IMG/VR virus record: IMGVR_UViG_3300007734_000631
Location: 1 to 35,908 of that record
DNA length: 35,908 nucleotides
Direction: 5' to 3' (one strand)
From: a virus
Numbering within the stretch: the stretch's first letter is position 1; each line of letters starts with the position of its first letter. The position numbers and the translations under genes are program-made. Under the pieces are notes generated by a model. It was not told where the DNA came from. It was given only the letters and a program-made list of their open reading frames with translations, and ran no database searches. Below are positions 654 through 10,463 of the stretch, piece by piece.

Positions 654-793
654 TAGTTGTCTCCTTCTGTTTCTGCATCAATAAGTTCTTGGTCTTCGGG
701 GTACAAATCTTCATACGGTATGAAGTGGTTCTCCTGACAGCAGTGGTACTTGTCCCCTCTAGGTGTCAGGCAATACACGCAGTAGTCGCTCAT
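653..793 (-). CDS. Small cysteine-rich protein with embedded palindrome
   Basis: A 46-residue protein, MSDYCVYCLTP... with C5-x2-C8 and a later HCC at 17-19, a possible small zinc knuckle, followed by an acidic tail. The ATG overlaps the upstream stop (ATGA) and the stop overlaps the ATG of the HTH gene (TAATG), so it is held in a translationally coupled chain. The repeated palindrome (core 710-724) falls inside the gene and is read as Phe-Ile-Pro-Tyr-Glu. No family is recognised. Confidence 0.6.
   Translation of the reverse strand: MSDYCVYCLTPRGDKYHCCQENHFIPYEDLYPEDQELIDAETEGDN
710..724. repeat. Dispersed palindrome copy 1
   Basis: Core TTCATAC-G-GTATGAA, located inside the small cysteine-rich gene at 653-793. 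Confidence 0.9.
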
Positions 794-1011
794 CCTAAAT
801 CTCCTGTTTCATGTTTTAATCTTTTGAGCCGCATACGGACGTTGCTTACGATGTCGGTATCGTCCCAAGGTTTAGATACGAATTGGGTTGGATACGGCTG
901 TGTCACTATCACTTGTATATCCATCAAGCATTCATACAACTCATCTGCTCGTGCTGCCCGCATAAATGCTTTCTCTTCGACGGGTATGTCGAACATCAGG
1001 TTTGCCATCAT
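790..1011 (-). CDS. Unidentified 73-residue protein
   Basis: Starts MMANLMFDIPVEEKAFMRAARADELYECL with AAAGGAGAG upstream; the second ATG at 1008 is an equally good start. The first half looks helical and charged, and the C-terminal part is basic (RMRLKRLKH). The stop overlaps the next ATG. It is not recognised as a member of a known family. Confidence 0.6.
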   Translation of the reverse strand: MMANLMFDIPVEEKAFMRAARADELYECLMDIQVIVTQPYPTQFVSKPWDDTDIVSNVRMRLKRLKHETGDLG

Positions 1012-1014
1012 CAG

Positions 1015-1569
1015 TCACTCTCCTTTCTCTTGTTCCAAACCATCACTCTCTTCCTCACCCTCTTGTGGTTCTAGGTAGTACAAGGCATCGTGTACCTTGA
1101 GACCTAGCCCATCTACGTAGTTGCCTTCTTGTGCAATACGCAACGTACAAATAGCACGTATCACCCAAGCAGGGGCATCCTTCTGCGCTATGTTTTTTCT
1201 TAGCTTACCTTTGAAACTTGGCAATGTAAAGTCTATAATATCTATCAGACCATCGTCTTTGATAGTCACCCTCAATGCCGCTTTTGTCTCCGCTTTTGTT
1301 ATCAGTGCATGAATGATTTGCGGGTCGTTCACTGATGGGATTGGCACGGTATAAATGCTTGGGATGTGGTCAATCCTAGGTTGGGGTAGGGTGCGTACAA
1401 GGGTTGAAGGGTATCGCGGGTCGTTATGCCCAAAGCTGTACCTAGAATTACCCAATGCACGTGCATACGTTCTAAACCACCATTCAGATGACAGCACATC
1501 GTTTGCCACCACTTCTTTGAGTGGCTTGTTCCTGTAGTAGTTGTCTTCGTAGGCTTCGTTGTTATTCAT
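1015..1569 (-). CDS. Unidentified 184-residue phage protein
   Basis: A soluble-looking protein with GAGGAG upstream of its ATG, which overlaps the upstream stop. There is an aromatic N-terminal part (YEDNYYRNKP, SSEWWFRTYARAL), a proline-rich middle and an acidic C-terminal tail. The phrase WVIRAICTLRIAQEGNYVDGLG suggests a helical core. There are no transmembrane segments and no catalytic motif that I can name. It sits in the middle of the coupled small-gene cluster. Confidence 0.65.
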   Translation of the reverse strand: MNNNEAYEDNYYRNKPLKEVVANDVLSSEWWFRTYARALGNSRYSFGHNDPRYPSTLVRTLPQPRIDHIPSIYTVPIPSVNDPQIIHALITKAETKAALRVTIKDDGLIDIIDFTLPSFKGKLRKNIAQKDAPAWVIRAICTLRIAQEGNYVDGLGLKVHDALYYLEPQEGEEESDGLEQEKGE

Positions 1570-1736
1570 TCGTATATCTCCTCAATAGATTCAACACTCC
1601 AGTTTGAGTCGTTGATATTCACCCCGTCAGCTTCGATGCGTTTCCACGCTACTCCCTCAGCTTCGTCTTCGTTCTCAGCTTCCACAGTCACAATCACGTA
1701 GCTTGTGCGCTGCAACTCCACTTCATAGGTTTTCAT
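1566..1736 (-). CDS. DpnD/PcfM-like small protein
   Basis: A 56-residue protein with the layout of the DpnD/PcfM family (PF14207 type): an N-terminal strand (KTYEVELQRTSYVIVTVEA) followed by an acidic helix (NEDEAEGVAWKRIEAD) and a short C-terminal strand (WSVESIEEI). Such proteins are common on phages and plasmids and have no agreed function. The ATG at 1736 overlaps the previous stop and the stop overlaps the next ATG. The family match rests on overall pattern. Confidence 0.55.
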   Translation of the reverse strand: MKTYEVELQRTSYVIVTVEAENEDEAEGVAWKRIEADGVNINDSNWSVESIEEIYE

Positions 1737-1885
1737 GTTTCATCCTTCTTTTCTTTTTCCTGCGCCATCTCGCACAGGGTGTCGTACTGCTTCCATGCCG
1801 CGCAGCATATGCAAGTCCACTCGTAGTCAGGGCAACGCTCACCATAGAATTCGGTGAGGGCTTCTTCAATCAGGTTAGTCATCAT
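1733..1885 (-). CDS. Small cysteine-rich protein
   Basis: A 50-residue protein starting MMTNLIEEAL, placed by GAGGAG seven bases upstream of the first of two adjacent ATGs. It contains CPDYEWTCICC at about residues 18-28 and another Cys at 38, a candidate small metal-binding site, followed by a Lys/Glu tail. It overlaps the gene upstream by a few codons and couples to the gene downstream by ATGA. No family is recognised. Confidence 0.55.
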   Translation of the reverse strand: MMTNLIEEALTEFYGERCPDYEWTCICCAAWKQYDTLCEMAQEKEKKDET

Positions 1886-2114
1886 GGTTGTTCTCCTCAA
1901 GGTTTTTTAGTTGGTACTCAGCAAGGCGGGCATCCCATGTTTCTTGCGTATCGGGCGGGTATATCCCGTGGTATGAGATGGTGCATCCTTCTTCGATGGT
2001 TGGGTCAGCAAGCATCGCGGCCTCGGCTTCTTGTTCGGAATCAAACGGCCCAACAAAGAAAAACCCACTCTCGATGTCGCCTATTACGGCAATACATTTG
2101 CATTTTCTAATCAT
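1875..2114 (-). CDS. Unidentified 79-residue protein
   Basis: Start chosen at MIRKCKCIAV because GAGAGGAGAACG precedes it, just after the stop of the 292-residue gene upstream. The fold looks alpha/beta: a strand (KCIAVIGD), a hairpin (GFFFVGPFDS), an acidic helix (EQEAEAAMLAD), then GCTISYHGIY. The 'FDSEQEAEAAM' pattern resembles small SPOR-like or YCII-like phage proteins in general outline only. The C terminus is acidic. Function unknown. Confidence 0.58.
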   Translation of the reverse strand: MIRKCKCIAVIGDIESGFFFVGPFDSEQEAEAAMLADPTIEEGCTISYHGIYPPDTQETWDARLAEYQLKNLEENNHDD

Positions 2115-2128
2115 GCTTCGTTCTCCTC

Positions 2129-3007
2129 TCAAATAAACACACAGAAAAATGTATCTGTGAAACGCACACCCACATCAACGATGGGCTTGCGTACTTCAGC
2201 AATCTGCAAGACAGCTACCTTGTTGCGAATGTGTTCAGGCACATCCTCCAGCTTGAATAGCACTTGCTCCATCTCGTCTTCAACTTGCATCACCACACGG
2301 TCAGGCTTAGACCATACGAAACATGTTTTAGGTTTGTATTGCGACATACGTTTCAGTTCCTCACCTTTCTCTGTTATTAGTGCCATTGCTTTCTTAAACG
2401 CTTCGGTTGCGGGTTGATAGCCTGAGCGAACCATGTTCTCCACTTCCGCAATCATTGGCTCGTCGATGTTTTTGATTCGGTACAACTCGTCCCTAGCAGG
2501 GGAGCCCAGTTTGGATATCGCTTGCGTCAAAGATACTCTGTGGTCATTGATTAGCGCATTCAACAGCTTGGGTTTCAAGTACGTCTTAGCATTCTTGACA
2601 GCGTTGGCAAAGTTAGATGTCCGCTTTACGTGATACCCATCATTGCCGGGGTTGTACTTCTCGTTTGTGATTGCATCTGACTTCACACAGAAATTTATCT
2701 TGCCCTCCTTGTCGCAATACAAAAACAACATACCTACACTTAGTTCAGGGGCTTCCTTGTAGGCCACACCCACGATGCTGTAGATGTCATATTTATCGGG
2801 GTTAAAAGTCGGTCTGCTTAGTTTAGGTAGCGTGAACACCACATCGCGGCGAGCATGCTTAAAGTCCAACATGAACCGATGCAAGTCACGGGGCACGGGG
2901 ATTTCATCTACCCACCACAGATGTCCCACAGACTTAGCGTAGTCATACGTATTCACGTAGTCGGTGTAATCGCTACCTACAAAATCTTCCTTGGTAATCG
3001 CTGGCAT
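2129..3007 (-). CDS. Unidentified 292-residue protein downstream of the VWA gene
   Basis: Start chosen at MPAITKEDFVGSD because AAAGGAAC stands upstream; an in-frame ATG 42 bases earlier lacks a good site. The product appears soluble, with beta-rich and helical stretches and a lysine-rich region around KTYLKPKLLNALINDHRVSL. No catalytic motif is recognised. It is the fourth gene of the leftward series that begins with the DUF3150-like gene, and it too has a palindrome just upstream (core 3058-3072, about 50 bases before the start codon). It is therefore probably controlled together with that module and may be a partner or substrate; that link is inference. Confidence 0.7.
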   Translation of the reverse strand: MPAITKEDFVGSDYTDYVNTYDYAKSVGHLWWVDEIPVPRDLHRFMLDFKHARRDVVFTLPKLSRPTFNPDKYDIYSIVGVAYKEAPELSVGMLFLYCDKEGKINFCVKSDAITNEKYNPGNDGYHVKRTSNFANAVKNAKTYLKPKLLNALINDHRVSLTQAISKLGSPARDELYRIKNIDEPMIAEVENMVRSGYQPATEAFKKAMALITEKGEELKRMSQYKPKTCFVWSKPDRVVMQVEDEMEQVLFKLEDVPEHIRNKVAVLQIAEVRKPIVDVGVRFTDTFFCVFI

Positions 3008-3057
3008 AAAAGTTCCTTTCACTGGTTGATAAAAAATAGGGAAACTCAACGGGCAAC

Positions 3058-3072
3058 TTCATACGGTATGAA
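3058..3072. repeat. Dispersed palindrome copy 2
   Basis: Core TTCATAC-G-GTATGAA in the gap between the VWA gene and the 292-residue gene. Three direct 12-base repeats carrying the half-site ATGAAGT follow at 3076-3111. Confidence 0.9.
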
Positions 3073-3075
3073 TTT

Positions 3076-3111
3076 GATGAAGTCCCCGATGAAGTCCCCG
3101 ATGAAGTCCCC
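3076..3111 (+). repeat. Three tandem 12-base half-site repeats
   Basis: GATGAAGTCCCC occurs three times in succession (3076-3087, 3088-3099, 3100-3111). Each unit contains ATGAAGT, which is the right half-site of the adjacent palindrome without its first bases. This makes it look like a cluster of extra or degraded binding half-sites spaced slightly more than one helical turn apart. Confidence 0.85.
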
Positions 3112-3140
3112 CGCGCCCTGATAACTGTTTCCTTGCTCCA

Positions 3141-4373
3141 TTAGTCGATGTGGATGACCACACCCGATGGCGGCTTTGCGTTCTTGTTACCCACCACACA
3201 CCACAGCACAGGGCATGACCACTCGCCCCATGAACCCATCTCCCCGTCAGTGAACATGACTACGCACTCGGGCACAATCTGTTCCTTCTTCATGTACTTA
3301 GGCACACATGCCGCATCAGTACCACCGCCCCCTGCTGGGCTGGTTGACTTAGACAACTTATCCAAGTCATCACGCCCATAAACTTCGTGTCGTGCAACTT
3401 GGGTATCCCAATACAACACATCCACTTTCTCGGGCTGGAGCGTGGTGCACACCGCTTGCATCTCAGCCAAGAACGGCTCCAGTGCATGAAAGCATGAACC
3501 CGATGTATCTGCGCCGAGAACCACACGCCCCATCGTCTCGCTCACCGTGCTAGGCATATACACATCGTGCTGGAGCCAACGGCGGTTGACCTTCTGCCAT
3601 GTGGAAATATCTTTACCAGCAGCAAGCGAGGACAGATACTCACGCAACTGAACACGCCAGTCAACCTTCGGTTCGGTCAACGCACCCAGCACAGCAGACT
3701 GATTGCCGTTCATCTTCCCTGCCAACATCTGACCCTGACGTATCGCTTGGTCAATCTCACGTTGCACTTCCTGTATGTCCTCGGGAGTCATGTCGCTCGT
3801 ATCCCAGTCATGCTCATCAAGGCCAGCGTCCTCGTCACCGCTCGGGTCACCACCATCGCCATTGCCCTCACCGTCACCCTTACCCTCGCCCTTCTCTTTC
3901 TCGTTGTCATCGTCCTCAGCATCTTGGGTCAACGCATCGAACACTTGCTGTGAGTCCATGTCACGGTACTTCTCATCCAGCAGTCCACCCTCGGGCAACT
4001 TCACGAACCCATTCGATGCCCTGTCGATGTCATAGATGATTAGGTTAATCACGTAGTCGCATGCCATGTTCGCCCGCTTCGGGTGTATCGCATAGAGATG
4101 TTTCCACAAGAACGTATGCTGAAACACCTTGTGCAAGTTCTCGTGCAGAACAAGGCCGCGCCGTTCGGGGTCGGTGAGTTTGGCAATGAATGCTTCGCCA
4201 TAACGCACATCCACACCATTGGTGCATGCAGTACGAACATCTTTGGACACCATGTACTTGCCGACAAGGATGACACCCGAGTACTCCATAGTTTGTGGAT
4301 GGGACATAAGTTCCACATGGCAGCGTTCGATAAGCTGTAGTGGGGTTAGTGATTGAGTCTGAGTTAAGAACAT
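3141..4373 (-). CDS. HExxH metallopeptidase-like / VWA domain protein (DUF2201 type)
   Basis: A 410-residue two-domain protein. The N-terminal part carries HENLH at residues 77-81 and CDYVIN at 105-110, the signature of the putative metallopeptidase domain of DUF2201/VWA-like proteins. A very acidic Gly/Asp/Glu linker spans about 150-190. The C-terminal part is a VWA domain with MIDAS motif DTSGS at 289-293, a GGGTD turn at 349-353 and FTDGE at 374-378. Such proteins typically pair with MoxR-type ATPases, and one lies immediately upstream here. VWA/MoxR pairs act as metal chelatases or protein-remodelling machines; the cobaltochelatase CobT resemblance is only by architecture. Start at 4373 has AAAAAGGA upstream. 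Its leader holds the four-unit half-site array. Confidence 0.85.
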   Translation of the reverse strand: MFLTQTQSLTPLQLIERCHVELMSHPQTMEYSGVILVGKYMVSKDVRTACTNGVDVRYGEAFIAKLTDPERRGLVLHENLHKVFQHTFLWKHLYAIHPKRANMACDYVINLIIYDIDRASNGFVKLPEGGLLDEKYRDMDSQQVFDALTQDAEDDDNEKEKGEGKGDGEGNGDGGDPSGDEDAGLDEHDWDTSDMTPEDIQEVQREIDQAIRQGQMLAGKMNGNQSAVLGALTEPKVDWRVQLREYLSSLAAGKDISTWQKVNRRWLQHDVYMPSTVSETMGRVVLGADTSGSCFHALEPFLAEMQAVCTTLQPEKVDVLYWDTQVARHEVYGRDDLDKLSKSTSPAGGGGTDAACVPKYMKKEQIVPECVVMFTDGEMGSWGEWSCPVLWCVVGNKNAKPPSGVVIHID

Positions 4374-4410
4374 AGTGATTCCTTTTTAGTTAAGGGTACA
4401 AAACACGGGG

Positions 4411-4450
4411 CAACTTCATACAACTTCATACAACTTCATACAACTTCATA
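4411..4450 (+). repeat. Four tandem 10-base half-sites leading into a palindrome
   Basis: CAACTTCATA occurs four times with an exact 10-base period; the last copy is the left arm of a complete palindrome. A 10-base period puts every half-site on nearly the same face of the helix, as expected for cooperative protein binding. It lies about 40 bases upstream of the VWA gene start. Confidence 0.92.
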
Positions 4451-4459
4451 CGGTATGAA
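4445..4459. repeat. Dispersed palindrome copy 3
   Basis: Core TTCATAC-G-GTATGAA upstream of the VWA gene and downstream of the MoxR gene, fused to the 10-base half-site array. Confidence 0.9.
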
Positions 4460-4490
4460 TTTGATATGCAGTCCCCCACCTACTCTCCAT

Positions 4491-5582
4491 TTACTTCTTC
4501 GCGGTCTTGCCGAACATGTAGTTGTTAGCCGCCGCCCACATCTGAAACTTCGTATTGGTTGCCGCAACATTCTGCTTAGGGCAAGCCTCGCTCAACACGC
4601 TACGGGCAAACAAGCCTTGCGCCTCCTTGCTGAGTCGTGGCAGGAAGTCCATGAACGCATCCATCGTGGCCTTCTCAATGCGCTGGATTGCCTTAGACAC
4701 CAACATACACGCCGCTGCACCATTGCTAGGTACGGTGACAGTCGTGGGATTCTTGACCAACTCTTCCCAAGACACAAGTTGAGAGTCCAGCTTGTAGATG
4801 GTCAGTATCTTGTGCATCGCGGCTTCGCCTACCGTACCCGTCATGGCATGCCACAGGATTGCATCACCCAAGATAGCGGTGCGGGTAATCAAGTCGCTTG
4901 CCGCATGTAACGAACGTGGAGTAACACATGCCAACCGTACAGTACGTGGGTCGTTAATCAGCACGTTCATCTCGGGCTTCTCGTAGTCTTCGAACGATGC
5001 CAGCATCTCAGGGAACTCGCGCATCGAACCGATGATGACCGGATGCCATGCGTTGTTGATTGCATACTCCATCATGGTCATGTAGTCGGGCTTCGATACC
5101 CGAACTTGGATGACACGATTGCGAACGTGTGCTGGTACGTTATCGCCTAAGCCTTCTACCGAAAGATTGGTAGTCGCAAAGATGATGCCGTTCAACGTGT
5201 ACATACCCAGTTGACGTTCCAGCATCAGACGCAAGCAAGCATTGAGTACGCCACCCTTGGCCTTGCCCAACTCGTCCATCATCATCACAACCTTCTTGCC
5301 CTTGAAGTGCAAGCCAAACTCTTCGTTGGGAATGAATGAGCAAACCTCCACACCATCTAGTGTGCGAATTTTGGGCACGGTGAAGTCGCCCACATCCTTC
5401 GTGGTCAGGTCAACGTAGCAAAAGATGTAGTCTTTGAACTGCGGCAACTTGGCTAGGGATTTGAGGATGGATGACTTACCGATACCCATCTCGCCCGACA
5501 CAAGCACGGTGCGTAGGTCACCAATGGAGGCAATTAGGTCAACGCATTGCTGGAGGGATAGGGATTTATACATAACAGACAT
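4491..5582 (-). CDS. MoxR-type AAA+ ATPase
   Basis: A 363-residue AAA+ ATPase. Walker A GEMGIGKS is at residues 30-37, Walker B VVMMMDE at 98-104, sensor-1 Asn in FATTN at 135-139, and candidate arginine fingers lie in HVRNR at 152-156. The C-terminal half has the helical lid. This is the MoxR/CobS/NorQ arrangement; these ATPases work with VWA proteins to remodel or metallate a target. The VWA gene is next downstream and a DUF3150-like gene next upstream. Start at 5582 has AAAGGAATC upstream. A palindrome (core 5703-5717) lies about 120 bases before the start. The physiological target in the phage cycle is not known. Confidence 0.88.
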   Translation of the reverse strand: MSVMYKSLSLQQCVDLIASIGDLRTVLVSGEMGIGKSSILKSLAKLPQFKDYIFCYVDLTTKDVGDFTVPKIRTLDGVEVCSFIPNEEFGLHFKGKKVVMMMDELGKAKGGVLNACLRLMLERQLGMYTLNGIIFATTNLSVEGLGDNVPAHVRNRVIQVRVSKPDYMTMMEYAINNAWHPVIIGSMREFPEMLASFEDYEKPEMNVLINDPRTVRLACVTPRSLHAASDLITRTAILGDAILWHAMTGTVGEAAMHKILTIYKLDSQLVSWEELVKNPTTVTVPSNGAAACMLVSKAIQRIEKATMDAFMDFLPRLSKEAQGLFARSVLSEACPKQNVAATNTKFQMWAAANNYMFGKTAKK

Positions 5583-5694
5583 GATGATTCCTTTCAGGGG
5601 TTAATAAAAAATACACAACGAATACATAAACACACAGAGCTAGAACTAACGGGGAACATTGAACACAGGGAAATAAGTTAGGGGGAAATTTCAA

Positions 5695-5722
5695 AAGGGA
5701 ACTTCATACCGTATGAATTCCC
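5695..5722 (-). terminator. Palindrome-based hairpin with T run after the DUF3150-like gene
   Basis: On the minus strand the palindrome core is extended by GGG(AA) on one side and (GTT)CCC on the other, with one internal mismatch, and is followed at once by TTTT. It could work as an intrinsic terminator or attenuator between the DUF3150-like gene and the MoxR gene. The T run is short, so the call is tentative. Confidence 0.4.
5703..5717. repeat. Dispersed palindrome copy 4
   Basis: Core TTCATAC-C-GTATGAA in the gap between the DUF3150-like gene and the MoxR ATPase gene. It is the opposite orientation to copies 2 and 3, judged by the central base. Confidence 0.9.
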
Positions 5723-5731
5723 CCCCGTTTT

Positions 5732-6628
5732 TTAGAATGAGAACTTGTCCAGCATGGCGTCCACCTTGCGCTTGGTTTGCTCACGCAGGGAATCACTCTC
5801 ACGCAGGGAAGTCGCATCGACACCGCGCATTGCATCCTCCAGTTGCTTGCGCATCTCCTCCATCCGAACATCGCCACCGATGTTGAAGTGCTTGAGCAGC
5901 CCAGCCACTTCGATGGCGTTCTCTACCAATGAGTCACGGAATATCTTGCGCTTGGGGTCACCGTCCGCCCCTACCGTATCTTCAAGACGCTCTGACATCT
6001 TGGTGAGTACATCGTGCAGCCTATCCCATGCATCCTGCATTGCGCCCTTGATGCGGGCATCCATCACGGTCTCGTAGTGGGTACGCAATTCCTCCAGCCC
6101 CTCGCTCCCGATGTCCACGCGAAAGTCCCCCGATGTAGGCAGGGGTGCAAGCGAGTACCGGAACCCGAACTTGTTGACGATGTGTTCCCGTGTCGGGTAG
6201 TCCTCGCGGTTGAACAAGTCGCCCAGTTGGAATGCCGCCGCCGCGACCATCGTGTCGTACTCATTTAGAAAATTGTTCACAGCTTGGGCGAACTGCTGCT
6301 CGTAATCCGCCAGTCGTGATTTGAAGTCCAGCAAAGATGTTGTAGGGAGAAGCCTGTCGCCGTTGTCGCCCCACGGCTGGGTCACCGTGTACAGCCATGT
6401 ACGGATTGCGCCGCTCAGTTTGGTTAACTCCTCCAGCTTGCCGCTACCAGCAAACAGATTCTTGGTGTAGTTGCCAGCACGGGTACGGGTTGACTTTTGT
6501 TGGTCAACTTCCTCGCTCACCCGCTTGTCCAGCTTGCGCCCTGTCCATACGGACAGAGATAGGTTGACGATGAGGGCACTGCTTGAGAGAGTGCTGACGT
6601 TGGCGTTGGTTGTGGTTTGCAGTTGCAT
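5732..6628 (-). CDS. DUF3150-like protein, first gene of the ATPase/VWA module
   Basis: A 298-residue mostly helical protein. The N-terminal region (LIVNLSLSVWTGRKLDKRVSEEV), the central PWGDNGDRLLPT, and the following acidic helices match my picture of DUF3150-type proteins found beside MoxR and VWA genes on phages and plasmids. That assignment is by pattern and neighbours, not a search. The C-terminal third is a charged coiled-coil-like segment (residues about 210-295). Start is set at MQLQTTTNANV because AAAGGAACC precedes it. It is the first gene after the consensus promoter at 6709-6736 and has a palindrome in its 5' leader. Confidence 0.65.
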   Translation of the reverse strand: MQLQTTTNANVSTLSSSALIVNLSLSVWTGRKLDKRVSEEVDQQKSTRTRAGNYTKNLFAGSGKLEELTKLSGAIRTWLYTVTQPWGDNGDRLLPTTSLLDFKSRLADYEQQFAQAVNNFLNEYDTMVAAAAFQLGDLFNREDYPTREHIVNKFGFRYSLAPLPTSGDFRVDIGSEGLEELRTHYETVMDARIKGAMQDAWDRLHDVLTKMSERLEDTVGADGDPKRKIFRDSLVENAIEVAGLLKHFNIGGDVRMEEMRKQLEDAMRGVDATSLRESDSLREQTKRKVDAMLDKFSF

Positions 6629-6653
6629 GATGGTTCCTTTCAGTTGTGGTGTC

Positions 6654-6668
6654 TTCATACCGTATGAA
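6654..6668. repeat. Dispersed palindrome copy 5 in the leader of the ATPase module
   Basis: Core TTCATAC-C-GTATGAA. It lies roughly 35-50 bases downstream of the expected transcription start of the promoter at 6709-6736 and 26 bases before the first start codon. That fits a roadblock operator or an RNA hairpin in the leader. Confidence 0.9.
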
Positions 6669-6708
6669 GTTGCACCGAGTTACTACACATGATTACACAT
6701 GAGCCTAC

Positions 6709-6736
6709 ATTATAACACATTGACAGATGCTGTCAA
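6709..6736 (-). promoter_or_regulatory. Consensus sigma-70 promoter for the DUF3150-MoxR-VWA genes
   Basis: On the minus strand: TTGACA (6731-6736), a 16-base spacer, then TATAAT (6709-6714), both perfect consensus hexamers. The predicted start is near 6702, about 75 bases before the ATG at 6628. The -35 box is half of a perfect inverted repeat, TTGACA-GATGC-TGTCAA (6720-6736), which could be a repressor site. It points to strong transcription by host RNA polymerase of the leftward module. Confidence 0.82.
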
Positions 6737-6739
6737 CAT

Positions 6740-6761
6740 AGGGGGAGCAGGCAATCCCCCT
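6740..6761. other. Hairpin-forming inverted repeat AGGGGG...CCCCCT
   Basis: Six-base perfect arms around a ten-base loop, just upstream of the promoter and downstream of the gene ending at 6814. It could act as a factor-dependent or weak terminator for the upstream small-gene operon. There is no T run. Confidence 0.4.
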
Positions 6762-6820
6762 GTATGTCCCTATGTTTCCCTGTATGTCCCTATGTTTCCC
6801 TATATGTCCCTGCTTATCCC
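6761..6820 (+). repeat. Helically phased decamer array upstream of the promoter
   Basis: Two exact 20-base copies (6761-6780, 6781-6800) and a degraded third (6801-6820). Each copy is itself two related decamers ending in CCC (TGTATGTCCC and TATGTTTCCC), so six roughly similar units run with a 10-base period. On the minus strand they read AGGGA-xACAT. The array starts about 25 bases upstream of the -35 box, a usual place for an activator or DNA-bending protein. Confidence 0.8.
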
Positions 6821-7017
6821 TCCCTTGATGATTGGTTGTTGTTCAACTCCCACTCGTGGTACTGCTTGGATACCCTTGCGTAGACGCGCTCGTCATCCAG
6901 CATATGCATGAGTACTTTGCGGTGGTTGTTGGCATCGAACCGGTACTCCATTGCCTTTGCCGTGGCAATCATTGCCCAGCACAGTAGGCAGAATTCCGTG
7001 GTTGTGATTTCAATCAT
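6814..7017 (-). CDS. Unidentified 67-residue protein
   Basis: Last gene of the six-gene coupled set. The ATG overlaps the upstream stop (ATGA) and AAAGGAGATACG gives a good ribosome site. The first 25 residues are helical and rather hydrophobic (FCLLCWAMIATAKAM) with a C-x2-C pair; the rest is charged and ends in an Asn-rich tail. It could be a small membrane-associated protein or a compact soluble one. No family is recognised. Confidence 0.58.
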   Translation of the reverse strand: MIEITTTEFCLLCWAMIATAKAMEYRFDANNHRKVLMHMLDDERVYARVSKQYHEWELNNNQSSREG

Positions 7018-7229
7018 GTTCGTATCTCCTTTTGGTTAGTTTGTTTGAGGGTTGTGGGTGCGGCGGTGCTGGTAACGTATTGGTAGTTACCCTTCCCATA
7101 CTCTTGCACTATGCACCAGCCCTTGCGCTCTGCTTGGGCTTGCTCCTCCCCACACCACAGGCACAGGGGTACAAGGCGAGCCCTTGCGGGCGGGTCAATC
7201 TCATCACCACAGATGCGGCAGTCAGTCAT
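7014..7229 (-). CDS. DksA/TraR-like C4 zinc-finger protein
   Basis: A 71-residue protein with CRICG at residues 4-8 and CLWCG about 17 residues later, around IDPPARARLVP. This is the C-x2-C...C-x2-C layout of the C-terminal zinc finger of DksA/TraR proteins. Family members bind in the RNA polymerase secondary channel and change promoter choice, but the long coiled-coil of DksA is absent here, so only a short TraR-like or unrelated zinc protein is possible. Start at 7229 overlaps the upstream stop (ATGA). Confidence 0.6.
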   Translation of the reverse strand: MTDCRICGDEIDPPARARLVPLCLWCGEEQAQAERKGWCIVQEYGKGNYQYVTSTAAPTTLKQTNQKEIRT

Positions 7230-7414
7230 TTCATTTTCTCCTCTAGTAATATGTCGATGCACTTGTTCATATGCTTTCGCCCGTACTTGTTTTCGATATG
7301 CATGATTGACCTGAAAACTTCAGCACTTGCTCGTGCCCTTACTGGGTCGTAGTGGATAGCTACGATTGCCAGCCGCAAAATAATCCAATCTTCTTTACTC
7401 ATCAGCCATTTCAT
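7226..7414 (-). CDS. Unidentified 62-residue helical protein
   Basis: Start is set at MKWLMSKEDW because GGAGG lies six bases upstream and the ATG overlaps the previous stop; an ATG two codons earlier sits directly on the ribosome site. The protein is helical and basic (RLAIVAIHYDPVRARASAEVFRS, NKYGRKHMNKCIDILLEEKMK). Nothing specific is recognised. Confidence 0.58.
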   Translation of the reverse strand: MKWLMSKEDWIILRLAIVAIHYDPVRARASAEVFRSIMHIENKYGRKHMNKCIDILLEEKMK

Positions 7415-7608
7415 TTCCATCCTCCTTTGCTTTCAAGTTTCAATTTTTCCTCTTGCTTCTTCATACGGTATGAAGAATCGGTGTAGTTGGTTGGCGTGTC
7501 GTTGCGTGTGGTGCGCTTGGTTTGCACGAACTCAGTCCAGCCGTTGCACGAACTGCACGAATGCTTGTGTGCAAGTTGCTTGCGTTGTAACTTGTTAATA
7601 GTTGTCAT
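7411..7608 (-). CDS. Small basic protein with CSSC motif and embedded palindrome
   Basis: A 65-residue lysine-rich protein with CSSCNGW near residue 17 and a basic C terminus. Start overlaps the upstream stop (ATGA) with AAGGAG upstream. The dispersed palindrome (core 7460-7474) lies inside the gene and is read as Ser-Tyr-Arg-Met-Lys, a different frame from its reading in the gene at 653-793. This indicates that the DNA element and not the peptide is conserved. Confidence 0.58.
   Translation of the reverse strand: MTTINKLQRKQLAHKHSCSSCNGWTEFVQTKRTTRNDTPTNYTDSSYRMKKQEEKLKLESKGGWK
7460..7474. repeat. Dispersed palindrome copy 6
   Basis: Core TTCATAC-G-GTATGAA, located inside the small basic gene at 7411-7608. 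Confidence 0.9.
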
Positions 7609-7820
7609 GCTTGTTCTCCTTCAATTGCCGGTGAATCAGTGCAAACGCATACGATGCGCTCGAAACGTACGGGCGGGGTTTTATTTGTCACCCAATCAAG
7701 TGTGGTCGCAACTACGTTCTTGCCGGTGTGGGTGTAACTTTCCACACGCATGGGTTTGCCATGCACTTGGATGACTTGCCCGATGTGGTATTGGGCTTTG
7801 GGTATGAATGCGAATTTCAT
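7605..7820 (-). CDS. Unidentified 71-residue beta-rich protein
   Basis: Start chosen at MKFAFIPKAQYHIGQVIQV with AAGGAGAG upstream; longer in-frame starts lack a site. The repeated short strands (YHIGQVIQVHGKPMRVESYTHTG, NVVATTLDWV, RFERIVCVC) suggest a small SH3-like barrel. The last codons overlap the next gene. Function unknown. Confidence 0.58.
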   Translation of the reverse strand: MKFAFIPKAQYHIGQVIQVHGKPMRVESYTHTGKNVVATTLDWVTNKTPPVRFERIVCVCTDSPAIEGEQA

Positions 7821-7836
7821 GCTTGCTCTCCTTGTC

Positions 7837-8010
7837 TTATGAATGTGTGTAACCGTCAGTCTCAATACCTAACCACATACCGCACCACTGCACCATGATG
7901 CAGTCCCATCCCTGCTGTACCGTGCGGCGAAAGGCAAGATAGGTCATGCCTTGGTTGTCTTGCGTCCACTTGCGCTTGAGGGAAGCGCGTTGTTGCTTCG
8001 TTAGTTTCAT
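7837..8010 (-). CDS. Small basic protein, first gene of the six-gene operon
   Basis: A 57-residue protein starting MKLTKQQRASLKRKW, with GGAACCGAG upstream of the chosen ATG. The N-terminal half is basic and helical, the C-terminal half aromatic (GWDCIMVQWCGMWLGIE). Proteins of this look recur as hypothetical genes in tailed phages, to my recollection. It follows a structured leader (8032-8093). Function unknown. Confidence 0.6.
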   Translation of the reverse strand: MKLTKQQRASLKRKWTQDNQGMTYLAFRRTVQQGWDCIMVQWCGMWLGIETDGYTHS

Positions 8011-8031
8011 CTCGGTTCCTAGGTTGGTTGA

Positions 8032-8093
8032 CGATGGCGAGACTGCCATCGGGTAGAGAGACTGGGGTTGTTAGTTGCCCCCAATCCTCTACC
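8032..8093 (-). promoter_or_regulatory. Structured 5' leader of the six-gene operon
   Basis: Two hairpins can form in the presumed leader RNA. One has perfect 7-base arms CGATGGC/GCCATCG (8032-8038, 8045-8051) around a six-base loop. The other has arms GGTAGAG/CTCTACC (8052-8058, 8087-8093) enclosing an inner TGGGG/CCCCA pair. They adjoin with no gap, ending about 22 bases before the start codon. A role in mRNA stability or translation control is possible. Confidence 0.45.
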
Positions 8094-8105
8094 AGCTATA
8101 GTCTC

Positions 8106-8149
8106 TTTCGTTTAATTTGGTTTGGGTTATTTGGTTTCGTTTAATTTGG
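8106..8149. repeat. 15-base direct repeat pair upstream of the leader
   Basis: TTTCGTTTAATTTGG occurs at 8106-8120 and 8135-8149, a 29-base period. The pair lies where a promoter for the leftward six-gene operon would be expected. No consensus -35/-10 pair was found there. Confidence 0.7.
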
Positions 8150-8184
8150 CTGCGATAGTGTTTGTCGTTGACGCATCTCTCAAC

Positions 8185-8199
8185 TTCATACGGTATGAA
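8185..8199. repeat. Dispersed palindrome copy 7
   Basis: Core TTCATAC-G-GTATGAA, about 36 bases upstream (leftward sense) of the 15-base direct repeat pair. Confidence 0.9.
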
Positions 8200-8623
8200 C
8201 TCTCACGAATCCAACCATACAAAATCAACTCGTCTTCCTAGCAGGGGTTGGTGTGTGTCCGGCGGTGGCTCTAAGGTCTGCTTTGGGTTTCCCCAAGACT
8301 GATGTCCCCATATATAAATGAGCGGCACTTTCCACACACATACTCTGCATTAGGGTTGTTGCGCGTTTCCGCGCATTGCACCCCACACATTTAGGCAGAT
8401 GGGTAGAGAAAATAAAAAGTAAAAACAAAAATCTCTACCCTTTGCATTGACTTGCGCTTTGCTATCACTCTTCGGAACCGCACGGGTTCACTACTCGCTA
8501 CACCACAAAGTGCGCCGACTGACTACGGCACGCCTATTCACTCAGGGAGATATCACACAGCATCATGTATCGTGGGCTTCGCAATCCATCCTATACATAA
8601 CACCGATTCCTTCTATGTAGCTT

Positions 8624-8640
8624 CTAGTCACGATGACTAG
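8624..8640. repeat. Inverted repeat CTAGTCA-CGA-TGACTAG
   Basis: A perfect 7-base inverted repeat with a three-base centre, different in sequence from the dispersed palindrome, seen once. Confidence 0.7.
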
Positions 8641-8706
8641 CGGCGGTTTGGTTCATGCGCTTGTGAGGCGCATCGGTCTACGGATTGTTAAAGAGCGGCG
8701 GTTTAG

Positions 8707-8733
8707 GCAATCTTCATACGGTATGAAGTTGCC
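8707..8733. repeat. Dispersed palindrome copy 8 with extended arms
   Basis: Core TTCATAC-G-GTATGAA at 8713-8727. Outside it GGCAA and TTGCC continue the pairing with a single bulged T, giving the longest possible hairpin of the set. Confidence 0.88.
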
Positions 8734-9256
8734 GATGTTGTGTGGACTACGATGCTTCCGACACGCCCCAATTATATGCGGTTTCGGGGTTCTTGTCAAG
8801 TTAGTTATGGGTGGTTTGGTGTGATGTTTTTGGGGTATTTGCAGGGGTAAATGTAGGGGTGTGTAGTATGTGGAGAGTAAGCAAGGGTGAAGGAATGCAA
8901 TGTCTCAAATATTTCGTAATATTCTTGAGGGTGGAATAAAAGAAAAGTCAATGGTGGCGCGGGGTTAGCGCGATTTTTTTGATACTATTCTAATATTCTT
9001 GGTTTTTGGGATTTTGAGCGAGACAAAACGAGAACGCGAAAATAACCAAAAACAACAACCTATAACAACGCGTTTGTATGTTTAGTAAAAAACAGGAAAA
9101 ATTTTAGGTTGGCTTATATATATATTTTAGAGAATAATAGAATAATAGGGGTATTTCCCTGCCTAAGTCCTTGATTTATAAGGTTTTTGTTTTATTCTCG
9201 GATGCAGAATAATACGGAATATTTGAGAGGTAATACGTGCTTATTACAGCTTGAAC

Positions 9257-9271
9257 TTCATACCGTATGAA
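9257..9271. repeat. Dispersed palindrome copy 9
   Basis: Core TTCATAC-C-GTATGAA with arms extended to ten bases (AAC and GTT on the outside). Confidence 0.9.
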
Positions 9272-9298
9272 GTTGCTCTATCTTTACACGGCCTCATC

Positions 9299-9314
9299 TT
9301 CATACTGGTATGAA
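9299..9314. repeat. Dispersed palindrome copy 10, two-base centre
   Basis: TTCATAC-TG-GTATGAA: the only copy with a two-base spacer, 28 bases from copy 9. It may be a weak or altered site. Confidence 0.85.
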
Positions 9315-9390
9315 GTTTGTCAAGCTGATGCAAGCTGCGGGGGTATGCACTATGTGTGGCATAAGTCAATGCTACTAAGTGCGGCCCGCT

Positions 9391-9410
9391 TTTAGGAAAC
9401 AGTTATCAGG
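9391..9410 (+). repeat. Second dispersed motif, copy next to palindrome 11
   Basis: TTTAGGAAACAGTTATCAGG, preceded by GCGGCCCGC (9381-9389). Related copies are at 9500-9519 and, on the minus strand, 3117-3132 (GGAAACAGTTATCAGG). Confidence 0.8.
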
Positions 9411-9421
9411 AGCAAATTAAC

Positions 9422-9436
9422 TTCATACTGTATGAA
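9422..9436. repeat. Dispersed palindrome copy 11
   Basis: Core TTCATAC-T-GTATGAA; arms extend to eleven bases (TAAC and GTTA outside the core), the longest uninterrupted arms. Confidence 0.9.
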
Positions 9437-9499
9437 GTTATAACAACTACCGCCACACATACTACACACCCCACCAGATATAGCTATGTGCAGCCAGCG

Positions 9500-9519
9500 T
9501 TTAGGATACAGTTATCAGG
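9500..9519 (+). repeat. Second dispersed motif, copy 2
   Basis: TTTAGGATACAGTTATCAGG, one base different from the copy at 9391-9410, preceded by AGCCAGCG. Confidence 0.8.
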
Positions 9520-9568
9520 GGTTTTTGGTAGATTACGAGGGCTTTATGTGTTGGGTAATGAAGCGGAA

Positions 9569-9584
9569 CACCATGTTCATGGTG
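9569..9584. repeat. Inverted repeat CACCATG-TT-CATGGTG
   Basis: Perfect 7-base arms around TT, in the control region, followed by a GGGC-AA-GCCC element. Confidence 0.7.
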
Positions 9585-9609
9585 CCGCCGGGCAAGCCCG
9601 TGTAGCAAC

Positions 9610-9624
9610 TTCATACAGTATGAA
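9610..9624. repeat. Dispersed palindrome copy 12
   Basis: Core TTCATAC-A-GTATGAA, the only copy with A at the centre on this strand; arms extend to ten bases. Confidence 0.9.
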
Positions 9625-9716
9625 GTTAGCAGGTGTTGGCACTACACGCCGCACGCCGCGTAGCGTGAGATGGCCCGCTGACAAACGAGCGGCCCGCATT
9701 AGATACAGGTCTCAAA

Positions 9717-9769
9717 GGCCCAAGAATTTTGGGCCAAAAAAAACCCCCTCCGATTTCTCAGAGGGGGTT
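9717..9769 (-). terminator. Double hairpin terminator of the 177-residue gene
   Basis: On the minus strand a perfect 9-base stem (AACCCCCTC/GAGGGGGTT, 9742-9750 and 9761-9769, ten-base loop) is followed by eight T residues (9736-9743 on the complement). A second 7-base hairpin GGCCCAA/TTGGGCC (9717-9735) follows. It lies 22 bases past the stop of the gene at 9791 and is a strong intrinsic terminator. Confidence 0.88.
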
Positions 9770-9774
9770 CGAAC

Positions 9775-9789
9775 TTCATACGGTATGAA
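9775..9789. repeat. Dispersed palindrome copy 13
   Basis: Core TTCATAC-G-GTATGAA, wedged between the stop codon of the 177-residue gene and its terminator. Confidence 0.9.
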
Positions 9790-9790
9790 G

Positions 9791-10324
9791 TTATTTGATT
9801 TCCGCGCCCATCGCGGTCAACCATGAGGCAATGCACGTATGCAAACTACCTTTGTCGTCGTCATACTCGGCTTGCACTACTTCAATCATGCCCTTGAATT
9901 CAGCATGGTTAAATGCTTTCAACATGAGGCTTTCCAGAGTCGCCTTGCCCTTGCCCGCGCCACCTTTGCCCTTTTTGGCATCGGTGCGCGACTTGTTCCA
10001 GTCAGTGATAGGTTTGCCAGTCGCTACCGCCTCACGAAACGTGGTCAGGTAGTTGTTAGCAGTCCCGCTCGCCAGTCCCGCGCCCGTCAGCGTGGCGTGG
10101 AAGTCGATAGCGGTAGCGTCCTTGCGGCGGTCGCCAACCTTAACCACGCCAGCCTCACGCATGGTGGTGACCAATGCGTTAACACCAGCCATCGCCGTTT
10201 CCTGCGCCTTGCTAGCCTCAAGAGACGCAAGGCAGAACTGCGCGGCCTGCACACCATAGTTACCCATAGTGACCACAGCGCGAGTTGCAGAAGAAACGGC
10301 AGAGAGTTTTGCTTTCGTTGTCAT
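9791..10324 (-). CDS. Unidentified 177-residue protein flanked by palindromes
   Basis: Start chosen at MTTKAKLSAVSSATRAVV because AAAGGAACT lies upstream. The N-terminal 80 residues are Ala-rich helices. The middle part (ATAIDFHATLTGAGLASGTANNYLTTFREAVATGK) has the look of a helical DNA-binding or SAM-like domain as found at the N terminus of tyrosine recombinases, but no recombinase catalytic domain follows. A Lys/Gly linker (KKGKGGAGKGK) and a C-terminal helical segment complete it. It is transcribed alone, ends in a strong terminator, and has a palindrome on each side. It is therefore a candidate regulator; that is inference. Confidence 0.68.
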   Translation of the reverse strand: MTTKAKLSAVSSATRAVVTMGNYGVQAAQFCLASLEASKAQETAMAGVNALVTTMREAGVVKVGDRRKDATAIDFHATLTGAGLASGTANNYLTTFREAVATGKPITDWNKSRTDAKKGKGGAGKGKATLESLMLKAFNHAEFKGMIEVVQAEYDDDKGSLHTCIASWLTAMGAEIK

Positions 10325-10448
10325 GATAGTTCCTTTAGGAAAACATCGCACATGGACAATGCGCCATGTGAACGATGCATCGGGTATATCAACTCCCGAT
10401 AACTGAAATGTACGCCACCTATAACATCTTTGCACGACATAGCGCATT

Positions 10449-10463
10449 TTCATACGGTATGAA
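10449..10463. repeat. Dispersed palindrome copy 14
   Basis: Core TTCATAC-G-GTATGAA, about 125 bases upstream of the start of the 177-residue gene, near its likely promoter. It is the last copy before the virion genes. Confidence 0.9.

Follow-up and report, generated by a model that had tools for sequence, protein, structure and literature searches.

Temperate mycobacteriophage L5 and its relatives in cluster A combine an immunity repressor with stoperators (PMC9283540, PMC6550527). The L5 repressor is a monomeric two-domain protein and the stoperators are asymmetric 13-bp sites, oriented with transcription and bound by the monomer. Prophage SPbeta has another kind of master regulator, MrpR, a protein of about 320 residues with a tyrosine-recombinase fold (PMC10516654). 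The viral DNA analysed here, a stretch of 35,908 bases hereafter called the window, shares with L5 a single phage protein of about 180 residues and more than ten short sites dispersed over promoters and short intergenic gaps; in both cases a block of initiation and elongation is proposed, and the specificity of the sites diversifies among relatives. By analogy, the L5 stoperator system is its closest functional counterpart. However, the sites in the window are perfect 15-bp palindromes, the 177-residue protein that we associate with them shows no detectable relation to the L5 repressor, and no lysogeny gene was found. With SPbeta the locus shares a motif of 15 bp that recurs in intergenic positions across the phage genome, as described for MrpR and its SPBRE element (PMC10516654), but the protein has 177 residues and no match to the integrase family PF00589 was detected in the window or in 29 family records. 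As defining features of both L5 and MrpR are missing, we filed the system as a variant of the dispersed-operator phage repressors. It does show one general trait of repressors that read palindromes through a helix-turn-helix, here a predicted one: residues of the recognition helix covary with the operator arms.

Relatives of this phage measure about 60-67 kb, and the window, at 35.9 kb, is a fragment. It contains 13 exact copies of TTCATACNGTATGAA and one copy with a two-base centre (9299-9314), all within 710-10463 and all 14 with perfect arms. Every position listed by the sequence-only reading was thus reproduced, and so was the absence of copies from the virion half, since our scan found none past 10463. 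Versions of TTCATACNGTATGAA with one or two mismatches were absent from the window, the chance expectation for up to two mismatches being 0.10 matches in dinucleotide shuffles. Repeated 7-1-7 palindromes (7-bp arms around one base) were absent from 100 order-2 Markov simulations, and within the window none but TTCATACNGTATGAA is repeated. A set of 75 unrelated viral contigs (771 kb) likewise held no further 7-1-7 palindrome in more than one copy, so that a comparable density was not found there either. Many sites lengthen to AACTTCATACNGTATGAAGTT. Those at 710 and 7460 fall within short ORFs, and others lie between the genes of a small-gene cluster and of the DUF3150-AAA-VWA module. As had been claimed, a site precedes each of the three module genes (6654 for DUF3150, 5703 for AAA, 4445 for VWA) and their next neighbour (3058). 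The early strand is the minus strand. The features are, in window coordinates:

10449-10463: palindrome at the divergent boundary, upstream of the regulator gene
9791-10324, minus strand: gene of the 177-aa regulator, assigned from homologs in palindrome-bearing phages, the AF2 model and covariation with site class
9775-9789: palindrome 1 nt past the regulator stop codon, ahead of the terminator
9741-9770, minus strand: intrinsic terminator downstream of the regulator gene
9610-9624: palindrome in the control region
9422-9436: palindrome in the control region
9299-9314: palindrome with two-base centre
9257-9271: palindrome in the control region
8771-8799, minus strand: perfect sigma-70 promoter of the early leftward unit, TTGACA-17-TATAAT
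8713-8727: palindrome, 43 bp downstream of the -10 of the 8771-8799 promoter
8686-8696, minus strand: boxA-like GCTCTTTAACA in the leader, 16 nt past palindrome 8713
8185-8199: palindrome in the leader of the small-gene operon
7460-7474: palindrome in ORF 7411-7608, next start codon 46 nt on
6709-6736, minus strand: perfect sigma-70 promoter of the ATPase module, TTGACA-16-TATAAT
6654-6668: palindrome, 40 bp downstream of the -10 of the 6709-6736 promoter, ahead of the DUF3150 gene
5732-6628, minus strand: gene of a DUF3150 protein
5703-5717: palindrome ahead of the AAA ATPase gene
4491-5582, minus strand: gene of an AAA (MoxR-like) ATPase
4445-4459: palindrome ahead of the VWA gene, preceded by three half sites
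4415-4444: three additional TTCATAC half sites with a 10-bp period (4415, 4425, 4435)
3141-4373, minus strand: VWA / DUF2201 metallopeptidase-like gene
3058-3072: palindrome ahead of gene 2129-3007
2129-3007, minus strand: conserved gene after the ATPase module, with no assigned function
710-724: palindrome in ORF 653-793, next start codon 57 nt on

A motif scan of IMG/VR returned other contigs with up to 11 copies, which are syntenic relatives, and most motif-bearing relatives whose contig spans the place of the 177-aa gene carry a homolog of it. All members of the 177-aa family found in relatives come from uncultured contigs, many of them fragments. Fetching 30 loci by the 177-aa family alone avoided ascertainment by the motif, and TTCATAC or TTCGTAC arms (TTCATACNGTATGAA / TTCGTACNGTACGAA) were present in essentially all. 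Eighty loci fetched by the ATPase displayed the classes TTCATAC, TTCGTAC, TTCCCAC, TTCATAT and TCCCTAT, the last three also with one base between the arms, and most of those spanning the regulator's place encode a 177-aa homolog. The AAA ATPase / VWA-metallopeptidase / DUF3150 module (3141-6628 in the window) is conserved throughout the family. A second clade within the eighty loci has palindromes very unlike these, namely GTAGGAC-N3, GTAGTAT-N3, GGGTAC-N2, TAGGATATAC-N and AAGTTAG-N6; several of these phages (L276, L280, L271, L264) have at the regulator's place a gene bracketed by sites, and such genes form families whose homology is shared across different palindromes. Syntenic sites often keep their flanks and swap their arms, as in the sister phages L257 (GATTTTCATACGGTATGAAATTG) and L260 (GATTTTCCCACCGTGGGAAAAGC). 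Close relatives retain the sites or carry another palindrome at syntenic places, and the simple loss that would have weakened the sequence-only reading was not seen. In a 64-kb relative (G003) the leftward block, from about 15.4 to 36.5 kb, encodes a DUF927 protein, a nuclease, a SNF2 helicase and DNA polymerase A, and all 10 sites are confined to the promoter-proximal 6 kb of this block. Comparison of L247 with L262 showed a half-converted-looking site, TTCTTACAGTGGGAA, where relatives have full palindromes, a possible class-switch intermediate; a phage with mixed TTCATAC/TTAATAC arms (L163-L166, record G025) possibly represents another intermediate specificity.

Annotated phages gave no near DNA match to the virion region, and the isolates DSL-LC04, 023Pt_psg01 and HTVC027P, relatives by their terminase, are without such an array. 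Planktothrix phage Pag-Yong1 (OL906435), a distant relative with VWA and ATPase genes, contains 17 exact GGTTCAG-N-CTGAACC sites, mostly in gaps ahead of leftward genes. Its arms differ from those in the window, and unlike in the window some sites lie in the virion half too; a 187-aa gene occupies the place of the regulator, and no homolog of the 177-aa protein was detectable in this phage. In the literature collection that was searched, nothing turned up on the palindrome sequence, on Pag-Yong1 or on roadblock repressors of this sort in virulent phages.

The 177-aa gene is itself bracketed by sites, one upstream (10449) and one directly after its stop codon (9775), the latter followed by the intrinsic terminator; at nearly all of 37 loci a palindrome lies 108-135 nt ahead of the regulator ATG. 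The AF2 model of the protein has a long N-terminal helix (20-57) followed by helices 70-81 and 86-102, which are predicted to form a helix-turn-helix-like unit with helix 86-102 (pLDDT about 90) as recognition helix. Sequence searches against Pfam, PHROGs, NCBIfam and the PDB gave no convincing match to the family, and tblastn in annotated phages gave none at all. Fold searches with the full model and with residues 51-125 returned no convincing structural relative by which the L5-type HTH plus Stoperator-domain fold could be assigned or denied. The best fold match, the helical chorismate mutase (VIA Z 5.5), was rejected as kinship.

Covariation links this protein to the sites. Its predicted recognition helix carries NYL or KVYL in phages with TTCATAC arms, [KQ]TYL with TTCGTAC and KKTAQNYLSL with TTCCCAC. 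At residue 113, arms ending in C go with R, or with K in the TTCCCAC class, and arms ending in T go with Q or T. Signature and class agreed without mismatch in 35 phages, the covariation with site class pointing to 91 and 113 as the specificity positions. The minimum number of changes in site class was 9 on both the ATPase and the DUF3150 tree, 10 on the VWA tree and 8 on the TerL tree; the regulator tree, built with residues 82-115 removed, again gave 9. Among 2288 alignment columns from 7 proteins, the best class-associated one was regulator position 113, and 7 of the 178 regulator columns reached 0.6, compared to 8 of 2110 in the other proteins. Independent contrasts on the ATPase tree (2, 3 and 2 pairs) were all concordant, although they are so few that single residues did not reach formal significance. 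By eye, the flanking base (C or T) showed no clean link to single residues. As far as sequence comparison can tell, related phages thus appear to have exchanged the palindrome repeatedly together with the part of the protein that reads it, so that sequences alone point to the partner and to its recognition code, and the identification of the palindromes as operators of the phage's own 177-aa regulator is strongly supported.

We then related the sites to promoters. Across 36 loci, the palindrome lies 33-45 bp past the -10 at 55 of 60 strong early-strand promoters; the opposite strand has only two such promoters, neither near a palindrome. Of 343 sites, about 20% have a promoter that scores at least 10, as against 0% in two controls, and the remaining sites lie inside early transcription units. 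The regulator's own predicted promoter is weak (TGCAA-N16-YATAAT-like), and in relatives the site lies upstream of it, at about -55 to -79 in steps of loosely 11 bp. Together with the conserved placement and the arm/recognition-helix covariation, this geometry backs the earlier suggestion of a two-fold symmetric protein site in a phage-wide regulon. We propose that the 177-aa protein would act as a dimer, placing one recognition helix on each 7-bp arm, and would repress the leftward early genes. A dimer bound at about +27 to +53 of the two strong early promoters may keep polymerase from escaping the promoter or halt it early in elongation; the spacings vary over a full helical turn, which is compatible with a roadblock. 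Elsewhere the dimer would halt polymerase during elongation, between one early gene and the next, in the manner of a stoperator. As the regulator accumulates, the early genes would be turned off and the virion genes would stay on, because these have no sites and should be spared. The regulator's own promoter would escape the roadblock or even be helped, given that its palindrome lies upstream, where it could activate rather than repress. While dimer, repression, roadblock and timing are what we infer, we consider it likely that the palindromes are operators of a dimeric 177-aa repressor that roadblocks early genes at their start and along their units.

That same upstream position argues for a different use of the protein, mainly as an activator or dual regulator that might, for example, turn on its own promoter and those of the virion genes at the divergent boundary, the early sites being of secondary importance: in nearly all relatives the site lies at about -55, -66 or -78 of the regulator's predicted promoter, about one helical turn apart. 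However, most sites are found downstream of strong early promoters or within transcription units, where activators do not act, and promoters as close to perfect as the strong early ones require no activator; we regard this reading as unlikely. A host transcription factor exploited by the phage is much less probable still. Host operators such as Fur-type boxes share the 7-1-7 layout, but the arm classes track the phage protein, and phages whose neighbouring genes are almost identical can differ in class.

The sequence-only reading had left a choice between a regulon or early/late switch, a DNA-organising (centromere-like) site and an anti-restriction site. The first is favoured by our data and the last found no support. 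Many identical sites limited to one genome block would suit a partition array, but no ParA-type ATPase (PF13614) was found in 19 family records and the sites follow early promoters and gene starts without centromere-like clustering, which leaves that option very improbable. We give equally little credence to a motif that works in RNA, as early-leader hairpins bound or cut by a protein. Although many sites lie in 5' leaders and one is followed by a boxA-like signal, the arms are complementary right up to the single central base, and an RNA hairpin could not form the two innermost of these pairs; arms as weak as TTCATAT are unlikely to fold, and within a genome the identity of the arms is invariant, beyond what mere pairing would require.

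Other repeated elements accompany the palindromes. Of 45 relatives, about ten have an exact boxA on the early strand, close to palindromes, and none has one on the other strand; the rrn-like boxA GCTCTTTAACA suggests a possible Nus-type antitermination of the early operon. A second element, CTGATAACTGTWTCC, is present in the window at 9395 and 9504 on the minus strand, in the control region, and at 3118 on the plus strand, and in relatives similar copies adjoin palindromes. The half-site units TTCATACAAC form three tandem copies with a 10-bp period at 4415-4444, beside the full site 4445. In second-clade loci (L278-L302), TGTTTAAACA occurs in 6-12 copies, often exactly between the Shine-Dalgarno sequence and the start codon (ggagTGTTTAAACATG); because of this position it was set aside as a different element and not as a counterpart of the palindrome. 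An Rfam search of the first 11 kb gave sub-threshold matches only.

Returning to the repressor reading, the system is probably used for temporal control in lytic growth, because no integrase, large serine recombinase (PF07508, 19 family records) or ParA was found; many contigs are fragmentary, so that missing lysogeny genes do not prove a virulent life style. We speculate that it might have an extra, immunity-like role against co-infecting phages, which would explain the diversification of the classes. More tentatively, and with some doubt on our side, this large family may consist of virulent phages with a fast-diversifying immunity-like repressor but no lysogeny. Each lineage would hold on to a palindrome of its own, the repressor of a resident phage would silence co-infectors of the same class while sparing those of other classes, and selection for rare classes would drive the concerted replacement of all operators and the recognition helix.

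Judged from its genomes, this family of uncultured phages, which seem not to integrate, appears to use one small DNA-binding protein, reading many copies of one palindrome, as the switch of its early genes. The protein is a member of a predicted DNA-binding regulator family that none of the libraries searched recognises. Its phages offer a natural series of specificity switches, at arm position 4 (A/G/C) and position 7 (C/T), together with the accompanying residues. How a dozen operators and their protein change together, a puzzle of regulatory evolution, thereby becomes testable, and it can now be asked whether phages without signs of lysogeny aim immunity-like repressors at each other.
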